Below are positions 53,358 to 57,101 of a DNA stretch of 64,000 nucleotides, one piece after another. The position numbers and the translations under genes are program-made. Positions within the stretch are counted from its first letter, which is position 1, and every line of letters begins with the position of its first letter. Under the pieces are notes generated by a model. It was not told where the DNA came from and did no database searches. It saw only the letters and a program-made list of their open reading frames with translations. Where the stretch lies: NCBI RefSeq assembly GCF_020181595.1, contig NZ_CP084028.1:4144930-4208929 (forward strand), read 5' to 3'. Source of the stretch: [Mycobacterium] vasticus (GTDB lineage Bacteria > Actinomycetota > Actinomycetes > Mycobacteriales > Mycobacteriaceae).

Positions 53358-53444
53358 CGGTGGCGGAGGGATTTGAACCCCCGGACGGTTTTAGCCGTCT
53401 CTCGCTTTCAAGGCGAGTGCATTAGGCCGCTCTGCCACGCCACC
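53358..53444 (-). tRNA. tRNA-Ser(TGA)
   Basis: Acceptor GGTGGCG pairs with CGCCACC; loop CTTGAAA reads TGA; long variable arm; T-loop TTCAAAT. CCA is not encoded. A run of seven T follows on the coding strand (53350-53356 region), which can terminate transcription. Confidence 0.95.
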
Positions 53445-53574
53445 GCGGGAGATGTTACCGGGTCAGCCGGGTTGCCCGCTGCCACCTACCTGCGCGACAA
53501 CGCGCATCGTCTCGATGACTGCATGCGCGCATTGCAGGTGCACGACACGAGCAAGGCAGTGCTGTGGGATCGGT

Positions 53575-53946
53575 TCACACGCAACCGACGGGATAGTCGT
53601 GCAGTCGTACGTCTGCGGTGAGCAGGTCCAAACGCTCAGCGATGGCCTGCGCCACCAGCATTCGGTCGAACGGGTCGCGGTGGTGCCATGGCAACTCTCG
53701 TAATATCTCGGCATGCGCTGCGGTGAACGGCAATTCACGAAACCCCGCCGCGCGCACCGCCTCATCGAGCCCGCCGGGCGCCCGCAGCTTGCCGAGTGAT
53801 GCCTTGATCGCCACTTCGGCGACGGTGATCGCCGAGACGAAGAGTTCGTTGTCGGGTTCGGCGATTGCGGTCCGATGCGCAGCCGCGAGATTCTTGTCGT
53901 CGGTCAACCACCAGAGCAGGACATGAGTATCGAGGAGTCCCCTCAT
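53575..53946 (-). CDS. vapC: VapC-type PIN-domain toxin
   Basis: This is a 123-residue PIN-domain RNase. The acidic residues expected in the active site are Asp6 (LLDTHVLLWWL), Glu44 (AEVA), Asp94 (DPFDR) and Asp112. VapC toxins cut tRNA or rRNA at specific sites. Its ATG overlaps the antitoxin stop (ATGA), the standard vapBC arrangement. The neighbouring tRNA-Ser gene may mark an insertion site. Confidence 0.9.
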   Translation of the reverse strand: MRGLLDTHVLLWWLTDDKNLAAAHRTAIAEPDNELFVSAITVAEVAIKASLGKLRAPGGLDEAVRAAGFRELPFTAAHAEILRELPWHHRDPFDRMLVAQAIAERLDLLTADVRLHDYPVGCV

Positions 53947-54182
53947 GCCCCGTACCAGTCGCGGTCGTCGGCGTCGCCGAATTGGTCGAAGTCCGCGGCG
54001 ATGGTCACCCTGCCCTTCCACAGGCCGGGCCGGCGCGGGACCCGATCCGGCTGGTAGGGAACCAGGCGCGCGATAGGCCTGCCGTTCCTGCTGATCACGA
54101 TCTCGGCACCGCCCTCCACTTGGGAGAGCAAACTCGAAAGACGCGTCTTCGCGTCATAGACATTAACGCTCTCGGAGCTCAT
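53943..54182 (-). CDS. vapB: VapB/Phd-YefM type antitoxin
   Basis: This 79-residue protein has a Phd/YefM DNA-binding N-terminus (VNVYDAKTRLSSLLSQVEGG, then EIVISRNGRPIARLVPY) and a C-terminal toxin-binding tail with GRVTIAADFDQFGD. It neutralises the adjacent VapC and represses its own promoter. ATG 54182 has no ribosome site but lies six bases after a -10 hexamer, so the transcript is probably leaderless. Confidence 0.9.
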   Translation of the reverse strand: MSSESVNVYDAKTRLSSLLSQVEGGAEIVISRNGRPIARLVPYQPDRVPRRPGLWKGRVTIAADFDQFGDADDRDWYGA

Positions 54183-54188
54183 GGGATC

Positions 54189-54217
54189 AGGGTACCGAGC
54201 TTGGTCAGACCTGACCA
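54189..54217 (-). promoter_or_regulatory. vapBC promoter and palindromic operator
   Basis: On the minus strand TACCCT (54189-54194) ends six bases before the vapB ATG. A perfect palindrome TGGTCAG-N2-CTGACCA (54202-54217) lies just upstream, where antitoxin binding would block RNA polymerase. Confidence 0.6.
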
Positions 54218-54253
54218 GACCTATGGGATCGGGCCGGTAGTAGCGTGTTCGGC

Positions 54254-55222
54254 ATGCATGCCATCGTCGCTGAGTCCCCTGAACATCTGGCTTGGCGGGA
54301 CGTTCCCGACACCCGGCCGGATCCGGGCGAAGTTCTGATCCAGGTCGCCGCGGCCGGGGTGAACCGGGCCGATCTGCTGCAGGCGGCCGGAATGTATCCA
54401 CCGCCGCCGGGAGCCAGCGCGATCATCGGGCTGGAGGTGTCCGGTGTGATCGCCGCGGTCGGTGACGGGGTCACGCAGTGGAGCGTCGGACAAGAGGTGT
54501 GCGCACTGTTGACCGGCGGCGGCTACGCCGAATACGTGGCGGTGCCCGCCGCGCAGGTGCTGCCGATCCCCGTCGGCGTGGACCTGGTGGACGCCGCGGC
54601 GCTGCCGGAGGTGGCGTGCACGGTGTGGTCGAACCTGGTGCAGACCGCCGGCCTGTCCGAGGGCCAACTACTTCTGGTGCACGGCGGCGCGAGCGGAGTG
54701 GGCAGCCACGCCATTCAGGTGGCCCGCCAACTCGGCGCGTGGGTGGCCGTCACCGCGGGCTCCGACACGAAGTTGCAGCTCTGCCGTGAACTGGGCGCGG
54801 AGATCACCGTCAACTACCACGACGAGGATTTCGTCGAGCGCGTCCGCGAGGCCGGCGGCGCCGACGTGATCCTGGACATCATGGGCGCCGCCTACCTCGA
54901 CCGCAATATCGACGCTCTGGCCAACGACGGCCGGCTGGTGGTGATCGGGATGCAGGGCGGGGTCAAGGGTGAGCTGAACATCGGCAAGCTGCTCGCCAAG
55001 CGCGCCGGGGTGATCGGCACGACGTTGCGCGGCCGGCCGGTGGACGGCCCACACGGCAAGGGCGCCGTGGTCGCGGCCGTGGCCGAGAAGGTCTGGCCGA
55101 TGCTCGCCGACGGCCGGATCAAACCGGTGATCGGAGCCAGCCTGCCGATCGCCCAGGCCGCTGAGGCGCACCGGTTGTTGGCCTCCGGTGAGGTGGCCGG
55201 GAAGGTACTGCTGACCGTTTAG
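54254..55222 (+). CDS. NADPH:quinone oxidoreductase (Rv3777-like)
   Basis: This 322-residue medium-chain dehydrogenase-like quinone reductase has the substrate loop GVNRADLLQAAGMYPPPPG near residue 35 and the NADPH motif HGGASGVGSHAIQVA near 141. It has no zinc-binding cysteines. It matches Rv3777. ATG 54254 is preferred over GTG 54245. No gene is seen between its stop and 55470; the inverted repeat arm lies there. Confidence 0.9.
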   Translation: MHAIVAESPEHLAWRDVPDTRPDPGEVLIQVAAAGVNRADLLQAAGMYPPPPGASAIIGLEVSGVIAAVGDGVTQWSVGQEVCALLTGGGYAEYVAVPAAQVLPIPVGVDLVDAAALPEVACTVWSNLVQTAGLSEGQLLLVHGGASGVGSHAIQVARQLGAWVAVTAGSDTKLQLCRELGAEITVNYHDEDFVERVREAGGADVILDIMGAAYLDRNIDALANDGRLVVIGMQGGVKGELNIGKLLAKRAGVIGTTLRGRPVDGPHGKGAVVAAVAEKVWPMLADGRIKPVIGASLPIAQAAEAHRLLASGEVAGKVLLTV

Positions 55223-55271
55223 TTGTGCGCGCCGCACCAGCGGGCGTCTCACCTCCACGGATCCGGACCTA

Positions 55272-55300
55272 TGTGATCGTTGCCCGCCTATGAGCGACAA
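55272..55300. repeat. Left inverted-repeat arm of a 1.76-kb unit
   Basis: This 29-base arm is repeated in opposite orientation at 57006-57034 with one mismatch. Its core is GCCCGCCTATGAGCGACAA. The two arms enclose the AlbA_2 gene. Confidence 0.85.
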
Positions 55301-55469
55301 CGGGCGGCTTTCGAACCAACTACTCCGAGGTGCCCCCGGGTTCGCGGTCCGATTCGTACTGAAAAAGTGCTAGAAAAATTCGGTCGGCTCGGAATCAACG
55401 CCAAAGAGCCACTACCTGCGAAAACATCGGCACTCGAAAATTACTCGAAAATCTAAATCCACCCAGAAG

Positions 55470-56906
55470 CTAACCCAGCTTCGCGAGCATCCAGGCCGCA
55501 CGCGGGTCCTTCTTTGACTTCCCATTCCACTCCACCAACCCCTCAGCGCGTAGCGCCTGCAACCGGTTGGTGGCCGACGGCCTGCTGATTCCGAGTGCAT
55601 CCGCGACCTCACCAGTCCCCATGGGCATAGCGGCGCCGCGAAGCAAGTCGAGCACCGCCTGGCTTCCCCTCGGCAGACGATTGGCCACTTCCGCGCTGAG
55701 TCGGGCAACTGCCTCCAGTCGCAGCTTCACACTGCCGGTCCCCTGACGATAAACAGGATCAGTCAAGCCAACCCTTCGCATCTCTTCGAAGATCCGCTTG
55801 ATCCCTTCACCCAACTCCTGTCCAATGCGAAGGTCCGCACACACACGCGCGATTCTCGGATTCCGGGCGAACCGACTGATCTCCAACGGTTTCGACGGAT
55901 CAATAAGTCCTGGGAACCGGCCTGGACTCTCGATCTCGATACGGTCTGGGAAGATCTCGACGCGTATGTGGTCACCAGCAAGGCTGTACGACCGGTGAAT
56001 CGCCGCATTCACTAGACCCTCCCGCCACGCGTCCTTCGGCACGATGTCCGTACCGGTAAAAAGTCCGGCTTCATCTAAGGATCGCCGCTTCGGCGCCCAG
56101 CGCTCGATGAGCTCGGCGGCATCTTGTATTGCGTACGGGATCGGCCCCTCGATCTTGACGTCGCCGTCGTCGTACAGATTCAGCTGCGCCCCAGTACCCC
56201 GCTCCGTTGCCATGTACCTCAGAACCCGGATGTACGCCTCGGGGAATTGCTGCTGCGGGTGCTTCCCGAACAGTAGGTAACCGGCATTAGTCAGCGCACC
56301 GTCCCGCGTGAGCAGACTCCGAGCATGCAAGATCCCCTTGGCCGACTCGGCCCCGGTCTTCTCGCGGTAGTTCTCAAGCAACTTCTTGTTGAGATCCGAG
56401 ATGCTGTGTCCCCCCGCAACAGCCATCCCGTCGTACTGCGCTTGCCCCTTGTCGAACTCCAATTCCTGCCGCTGCGAGAAGTTGAGCTTTCGTGACTCAT
56501 CACCGACCCGTAGGAAGGTGTCGCCGTTCTTCATCTCATGGACGCGTTCCCCCGGGTCTACACGAAATACTAGGAGTACATCGCTCCCACCTTCCGCGTT
56601 GACGCATTCGGTCTCCGTGCAACCGAAACGCACGGGTGGCACGGTGTGATCTATCGACGCCTGCCGCAGCTCGTTGATGCGCTTCAAGCCCTGCCGATTC
56701 ATACCTTCAACCGTCTGGCCGTGAACACCGACGACGATCGTCCCGCCTTCTGCGTTGGCAAACGCAATGAGCGCCTGTCCGAGCGCTTGCCCCTGCACCC
56801 GAGCGCTCTTCTTCTCAAACCATTGGTCCTCGACTGCCTCCACGATGCGCGGACCACGCTCGGGCACCGGGGAGGTCAAGACCGTATCGATCCGGTTCGC
56901 CGTCAC
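55470..56906 (-). CDS. AlbA_2 (Schlafen-type) ATP-binding/DNA-binding protein
   Basis: This 478-residue protein has an N-terminal AlbA_2/Schlafen-like domain (EKKSARVQGQALGQALIAFA at 31-50, NAEGGTIVVGVHG at 51-63), a linker, a GHKL-like C-terminal ATPase region (AWREGLVNAAIHRSYS and IEIESPGRFPG near 290-330) and a winged-helix end (~415-478). Such proteins are found beside defence, regulatory or mobile elements; the activity is not settled. The gene is visibly less GC-rich than its neighbours, has its own leaderless promoter and sits inside a 29-bp inverted repeat, all hinting at transfer. Confidence 0.8.
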   Translation of the reverse strand: MTANRIDTVLTSPVPERGPRIVEAVEDQWFEKKSARVQGQALGQALIAFANAEGGTIVVGVHGQTVEGMNRQGLKRINELRQASIDHTVPPVRFGCTETECVNAEGGSDVLLVFRVDPGERVHEMKNGDTFLRVGDESRKLNFSQRQELEFDKGQAQYDGMAVAGGHSISDLNKKLLENYREKTGAESAKGILHARSLLTRDGALTNAGYLLFGKHPQQQFPEAYIRVLRYMATERGTGAQLNLYDDGDVKIEGPIPYAIQDAAELIERWAPKRRSLDEAGLFTGTDIVPKDAWREGLVNAAIHRSYSLAGDHIRVEIFPDRIEIESPGRFPGLIDPSKPLEISRFARNPRIARVCADLRIGQELGEGIKRIFEEMRRVGLTDPVYRQGTGSVKLRLEAVARLSAEVANRLPRGSQAVLDLLRGAAMPMGTGEVADALGISRPSATNRLQALRAEGLVEWNGKSKKDPRAAWMLAKLG

Positions 56907-56912
56907 AGATCT

Positions 56913-56918
56913 ACTGTA
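56913..56918 (-). promoter_or_regulatory. -10 box of a leaderless promoter for the AlbA_2 gene
   Basis: TACAGT on the minus strand ends six bases before GTG 56906; no ribosome site is present. Confidence 0.5.
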
Positions 56919-57005
56919 AACAATTTTTAGTAGAGGCGTCCGAGGTAATGCTATGCCGAGCAGTCACGCTGCCGCCCGAAGCTGGCCAGCCTGACATAAC
57001 GGAGC

Positions 57006-57034
57006 TTGTCGCTCATAGGCGGGCAACCATCACA
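57006..57034. repeat. Right inverted-repeat arm of the 1.76-kb unit
   Basis: Reverse complement of 55272-55300 with one mismatch (28 of 29), the innermost 22 bases being identical. No target duplication is seen outside the arms. Confidence 0.85.
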
Positions 57035-57101
57035 CCCCAACCGCTCAGTTACGGTTGGGACAGAAGGGATTTCGGGCCGGCATAAGCCACACCAGCCCGC
57101 C

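Follow-up and report, generated by a model that had tools for sequence, protein, structure and literature searches.

An AlbA_2 gene that probably entered an older inverted-repeat doublet, and the dispersed mycobacterial hairpin family to which its arms belong

The two inverted arms that enclose a solitary AlbA_2 gene in the stretch of DNA analysed here (64,000 nucleotides, hereafter the window) belong to a repeat family dispersed within the genus of the host. With a probability of roughly 0.7, an older doublet resembling a REPIN stood at this site, and the AlbA_2 gene, with a predicted promoter of its own, was later inserted into its loop. The unit is ordinary as a gene island and notable as a view of a genus-wide hairpin family; equally, it corrects our earlier reading, as arms that bound a gene may not be the gene's own.

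The arms (55272-55300 and 57006-57034) constitute a 29-nt inverted repeat with 28/29 pairing (97% complementary) and 1705 nt between them, the whole span amounting to 1763 bp, and the last 20 bases are identical in both arms. The host genome, a 4.55-Mb chromosome, has been searched with the 29-mer allowing one free position and at most three mismatches, which gave three copies, namely both window arms and a singlet at C1:4237679, approximately 36 kb from the window unit and beside an emb gene. A control with the reversed pattern gave 0 matches, so the window arms are not a chance repeat. The preliminary description of this DNA had recognised arms agreeing in 28 of 29 bases around the unit, which the computed pairing and this control bear out, and had reported neither a transposase between the arms nor a target duplication beside them; by eye, none has been seen among the open reading frames (ORFs) there or at the arm borders. 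The features to which the text refers are as follows.

55237..55271, minus strand: left outer stretch, a degenerate version of the outer motif GGTNACGGNTGGGAC (by eye)
55272..55300, minus strand: left arm, TTGTCGCTCATAGGCGGGCAACGATCACA as read on the minus strand, with the family core TGCCCGCCTATGAGCGACAA
55314..55332, no strand: left loop end; 16/19 bases (hand count) agree, in the same register, with the element without the gene that genome G407 has at this site
55470..56906, minus strand: AlbA_2 gene, the single intact ORF between the arms, 478 aa, with SLFN_AlbA_2, RecG C-terminal-like HATPase_c_4 and IclR-type HTH domains
56968..57004, no strand: right loop end, common to the gene-less element at the same site in genome G069
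56991..57001, plus strand: inner motif of the right arm, CTGACATAACG, resembling the XerD half of dif; its left-arm counterpart is degenerate
57006..57034, plus strand: right arm, with the same core TGCCCGCCTATGAGCGACAA, inverted relative to the left arm
57035..57062, plus strand: right outer stretch, similar by eye to GGTNACGGNTGGGAC, an outer motif that recurs

Evidence for an older doublet comes from the same chromosomal site in relatives, for which 25 desulfurase loci have been compared. In four genomes (G407, G069, G016 and G422, the last read across two contig ends) a pair of arms lies beside the desulfurase stop codon and encloses a loop of 50-196 bp without the AlbA_2 gene, the arms being partly degenerate (in G069 and G016 they depart from the pattern at up to five positions). 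The loop ends of the window unit have counterparts in these gene-less elements: on the left, 8/500 shuffles score as high as the comparison with G407, while the comparisons with G016 and G069 are not significant; on the right, the similarity to G069 lies above all 500 shuffles and that to G016 is not significant. The AlbA_2 gene occurs at the desulfurase site in one genome only, so that the states before and after are not seen within one lineage. The nearest sampled relative, G410, in which the desulfurase-like neighbour protein is 100% identical (rounded), has the same neighbours as the window unit, but is without arms and offers no clean empty site, and as most other members of the clade have a different neighbouring gene, they provide no test of this site. 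In the intergenic region next to the desulfurase gene of G022, G286 and G078 (L048, L056 and L057), another tandem repeat with GCGGGATCGCAAGCGCGGCGGAGCCGG-like units is found.

Equally, the similarity of the AlbA_2 gene to its homologues is confined to the gene. On the nucleotide level, it covers 55466-56927 of the window for G034, stopping approximately 20 bp upstream of the AlbA_2 start, and 55469-56855 for G064, with nothing beyond. Gene-less pairs of arms at the same site, shared loop ends and gene-limited homology together place the AlbA_2 gene inside an older element. The comparison with sites that lack the gene had been proposed in the preliminary description, and its outcome, a retained pair of arms, comes close to the one which that description had itself set against a cargo-only mobile unit. 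Of its three suggestions, the one that places an insertion between copies of a dispersed repeat agrees best with the findings, with the amendment that the two copies were already an inverted pair at this site.

The gene itself is intact and, with 61% GC, poorer in GC than the window (68%) and both neighbouring genes (70%), as had been described beforehand; the leaderless promoter assigned to it is plausible by eye as a consensus match (TACAGT six bases 5' of the GTG). The SLFN_AlbA_2 domain (PF04326) scores 57.4 bits against a curated cut-off of 25.3, HATPase_c_4 also lies above its Pfam cut-off, and a search of NCBIfam gave no match for the protein. An identity as pAgo, based on a PADLOC match, has not been accepted, as the match spans only part of the model. 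Protein matches occur in 18/148 genomes, host included, and close proteins are restricted in this sample to a 56% identical paralogue in the host, G034 (81%), G064 (79%) and G140 (59%). Further homologues include one with 90% identity in M. malmoense, others of 41-65% in Streptomyces, Paractinoplanes, Nocardioides and three MAGs (seven loci), and phage-borne ones at 77% in Mycobacterium phage Squirty and at 65% in Gordonia phages. None of the 11 homologue loci scanned for arms has them on both sides, two showing one weak match with five mismatches each, and a long flanking inverted repeat is absent from 4/4 homologue loci scanned for it. A probable role for the AlbA_2 protein is that of a DNA-binding regulator or of a defence-type accessory factor, with no relation to the arms.

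Several observations on these neighbourhoods are worth recording. The homologue in G034 (L026) has in its vicinity an Abi_2 ORF (above cut-off) and a further ORF that resembles an IS21-type transposase by eye, for which Pfam gave no confirmation, and the host paralogue (L043, C1:711515) adjoins an ORF with the replication-associated domain REP_ORF2-G2P. In the window itself, the region 53358-54401 contains a tRNA gene (53358-53444, minus strand) beside a PIN-domain ORF (53575-54021), next to which lies a Phd/YefM antitoxin ORF (53943-54401), both ORFs above Pfam cut-offs. A scan of the window with Rfam identified tRNAs and SRP RNA and nothing else.

A search for the arm in the whole genome and in relatives, equally proposed at the outset, has yielded, besides the three copies in the host, a dispersed family. 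The arm pattern (at most three mismatches) is present in 7/148 genomes, host included, all in the same genus, against 0 for the reversed control. A model of 49 positions, built from 30 arms, finds 3-39 matches per genome at E <=0.5 in 25/25 chosen genomes, matches near E 0.5 including chance ones. Inverted doublets exceed other close arrangements among the 150 best model matches, with neighbours at most 2.1 kb apart being oriented '-+' in 41 cases and '--' (tandem) in 3, and '+-' or '++' in 0. Of 40 stretches chosen from the model matches and fetched, 36 contain a pair of arms; 23 pairs span 90-205 bp, and 11 of the remaining 13 are situated between embC and embA. The doublets fold, as DNA, into long hairpins (5/5 beat all 200 shuffles, z -3.9 to -9.4), a behaviour inherent in inverted repeats. 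Furthermore, the two arms of one element agree better with each other than permuted arms do (18.43 vs 17.87 of 20, exceeding every one of 2000 permutations; with one element per locus, n=15 and mean p 0.013), which is what hairpin constraint or conversion would give. The core pattern found no match in viral contigs, nor did the right arm with its flanks in plasmids and phages, and no recombinase or transposase ORF has been noticed in the ORF lists of the window and of three further loci (L022, L023 and L191). IS21-like and Tn3-like terminal repeats were considered as a source of the arms and dropped, no transposase having been noticed in these same four stretches.

The embC-embA elements, 400-700 bp in length, enclose a gene of approximately 100 codons for a winged-helix protein. 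Homologues are found in 235/396 genomes of the genus, mostly one per genome among the matches listed, and none is present in the host genome. The arm core (at most three mismatches) flanks the gene on both sides at 22 of the 30 best loci and on one side at 8; in the 15 least similar of those loci (L176-L190) it is found on both sides in 9. Counted by locus halves, the core occurs on both sides in 21/30 loci as compared to 0/300 shuffles. Four of 33 aligned proteins (P0040, P0055, P0060 and P0087) end in LSL, an ending consistent, by eye, with translation of the arm as TTG TCG CTC TGA. With cores on its flanks and protein ends that fit the arm, the winged-helix gene and the arm seem to be one unit. 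The 33 sequences share 25 invariant columns; the fold model has a pLDDT of 88 and weak fold matches in the PDB (E 0.02 and above), many of them winged-helix. No Pfam family scores above cut-off for the two proteins tested, and no catalytic domain has been seen in the protein of approximately 100 aa. A palindrome-like TGTCNNACCNNNNTGNCA is located just 5' of the gene in many of L162-L188 and is perhaps its own operator (by eye).

Other sequences have been acquired in or beside the arms, which supports the reading of the AlbA_2 gene as a passenger. One such case is a 464-aa ORF in G431 (L137:666-2060), an IS110-type transposase by eye, which lies within an embC-embA element adjoining the left arm and is read as a later insertion, since the neighbours of G431 are without it. 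Another is the host singlet with its toxin-antitoxin genes. As an observation on that locus (C1:4236300-4237650, L191:4801-6151), the winged-helix element that G410 carries between embC and embA is replaced in the host by a ribbon-helix-helix and PIN pair, both above Pfam cut-offs, with one arm remaining there; a second candidate pair consists of a MazE-like ORF just under cut-off and a partner without a Pfam family.

On the other hand, the arms might be those of an inverton, in which a recombinase flips the AlbA_2 segment between them, a reading that we consider unlikely, although inversion does seem to occur in the family. In a script comparison of the embC-embA gap, the loop is reversed relative to its flanks in 2/12 genomes, G380 (L106) and G368 (L107, a genome in a single contig), scores being 204-482 for the reversed and 66-108 for the forward orientation; the two inversions could be one shared event. 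The inverted segment of both carries the winged-helix gene and an extra arm copy inside. Two drafts point in the same direction. Contigs C167 and C114 of G422 have a 44-base block in common, from base 34 to base 77 of each, the pattern expected of an assembly graph with k=77 in which both flanks connect to the inner part, and in C98/C167 and C12/C61 of G422 as well as C96/C66 of G391 one flank is joined to opposite loop orientations (by hand). These contig ends suggest that both drafts hold mixed loop orientations. However, the overlap of C12/C61 exceeds 77 bases and the first base of C167 fits neither arm, two features for which a plain branch in the graph does not account, and all of the contig-end evidence could be mimicked by template switching at hairpins in library preparation. 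The close agreement of the window arms, 28/29 with 20 identical bases, would suit an inverton. Against this stand the window unit, for which a second orientation has not been seen, and the other groups of orthologous small elements compared, none of which was flagged as inverted; moreover, with a predicted promoter of its own for the AlbA_2 gene, flipping would switch nothing obvious. The invertible segment proposed in the preliminary description has support for the family, at embC-embA and at contig ends, and has not been seen for the unit on which it was proposed.

Still less probable is the other suggestion made there, that a mobile unit with the arms as its terminal repeats brought the AlbA_2 gene as cargo, with the transposase or recombinase acting in trans. 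Inverted outward arms around one gene without a transposase would be expected of such a unit, and at one place in the family, locus A, a short empty allele is accompanied by what may be a 6-bp duplication (GAGCCG). Of 20 genomes compared at this locus, 14 have no arm (by eye, a weak flagged match in G190 was not counted), G161 has a singlet, and four (G436, G086, G422 and G022) have a pair, G069 being unreadable; 8 of the arm-free alleles are short (156-161 bp between anchors) and 6 have other sequence. By hand reading, from which a global alignment departed by setting its gaps otherwise, GAGCCG stands on both sides of the filled site in G436 and G086, with one change in G422 and not evidently in G022, and once in 5/8 short sites, being changed in G190 and G016 and not found in G210. 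However, the insertion in G436 extends beyond the arms, by approximately 36 bp at one end and 27 bp at the other. At locus C, eight rows were extracted, with a pair in four, an empty site in three and one unreadable, and the duplication is not clear. Furthermore, the four relatives with armed elements lacking the gene, the scanned AlbA_2 homologues without arms and the other things that arms enclose elsewhere argue against a cargo unit.

Comparably improbable is the third alternative, that the arms are inverted dif-like XerCD sites, a chromosomal analogue of the Acinetobacter dif modules. A dif-like site of the host, at 2196811 and differing from the dif pattern by a single mismatch, is matched at no fewer than 14/22 positions by 51/92 arms, many of them orthologous and not independent, vs 0.16% of mononucleotide shuffles. 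The best placement is identical in 68/92 arms, the inner side of many arms has the right spacing, and the dif pattern (at most three mismatches) matched arms in G422 and G368. However, the right window arm matches the host site at 16/22 positions and the left at 10/22, a full 28-bp XerC-6-XerD site not being present at both ends, and the TTATGTCA half is absent from several small elements and from the outgroup elements. In one case, the contig pair of G391 as read by hand, the final base of the XerC-like half has travelled together with the loop, which places the crossover outside the dif-like centre and not between the half-sites. XerCD, once favoured as the recombinase, has been demoted by these contig ends, and the likeness of the arms to dif is kept as a lead.

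That two independent singlets flank the AlbA_2 gene by chance is hardly credible: singlets are common at locus B, where 20 genomes divide into 6 with a pair, 8 with a singlet and 6 without an arm (one weak flagged match, in G073, discounted by eye; 4/6 arm-free alleles retain the outer motif), but relatives have a pair of arms at the same site as the window unit and the orientation bias is strict.

In the preferred reading, with the AlbA_2 gene as a late arrival in an older doublet, a doublet of approximately 30-base arms with a short loop would already have lain between two convergent genes, and the AlbA_2/RecG-C-like gene would then have entered this loop, we infer by insertion rather than by exchange of the loop. 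The family may have spread as doublets, helped probably by the winged-helix protein together with a host or other recombinase, and loop inversions as well as decay to singlets might result from recombination at the 20-base core or from the formation of hairpins. Doublets could have been derived from singlets rather than the reverse. Extending this to the family as a whole, we propose tentatively, at below even odds, a genus-wide mobile and invertible hairpin family, REPIN-like without a RAYT, in which the winged-helix protein recruits a host recombinase to the 20-base core and loops gain passengers.

If this is right, and if the arms are distinct from the stem-loop families that PMC2267715 describes for M. 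tuberculosis, a dispersed repeat family would have been overlooked in a genus of medical importance. Equally, a candidate dedicated protein and natural segment inversion in the embC-embA gap would be at hand. In the accessible text of PMC3733652, 'mycobacter' occurs 0 times, in that of PMC10117815, on rep-PCR of M. intracellulare, neither of two core 8-mers is found, and among the open-licence papers listed, none describes the arm family in its title or in the beginning of its abstract.

Among known systems, AlbA_2/Schlafen-type ATP-binding proteins with a RecG-like C-terminus have the same domains as the window protein, which shows nothing unusual itself, one distant relative (3lmm) having been solved. 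Like MITEs, the arm elements are short and mostly non-coding, with inverted arms and an empty allele at one locus, whereas a known parent transposon is lacking among the viral contigs, plasmids and phages searched and a candidate duplication is seen at one locus only. The dif/pdif modules of Acinetobacter likewise place a segment between inversely oriented dif-like sequences, as far as the accessible part of that literature describes them; the arm family differs in being chromosomal and dispersed, with a conserved core and, in G391, a crossover outside the dif-like centre. With invertons, the embC-embA elements share a segment found in both orientations between inverted arms, the difference being that no recombinase ORF was noticed in the window, L022, L023 and L191 and that no promoter switch has been shown. 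The closest likeness is to REPINs, which are inverted doublets of REP sequences, the low-copy RAYT gene being flanked by such repeats (accessible part of PMC3116915). As there, a short intergenic repeat occurs as singlets and as hairpin-folding inverted doublets and flanks a low-copy gene. In contrast, the arm-flanked gene encodes the winged-helix protein of approximately 100 aa and not an HUH tyrosine transposase, judged from the flanked gene alone, loops of the arm family invert, and model matches number 3-39 per genome. The best reading is that of a REPIN-like arm family with a partner protein, identified by the flanked gene, that is not a RAYT, and with the AlbA_2 gene as a passenger; with such a system built around a different protein, what spreads these doublets would become testable.
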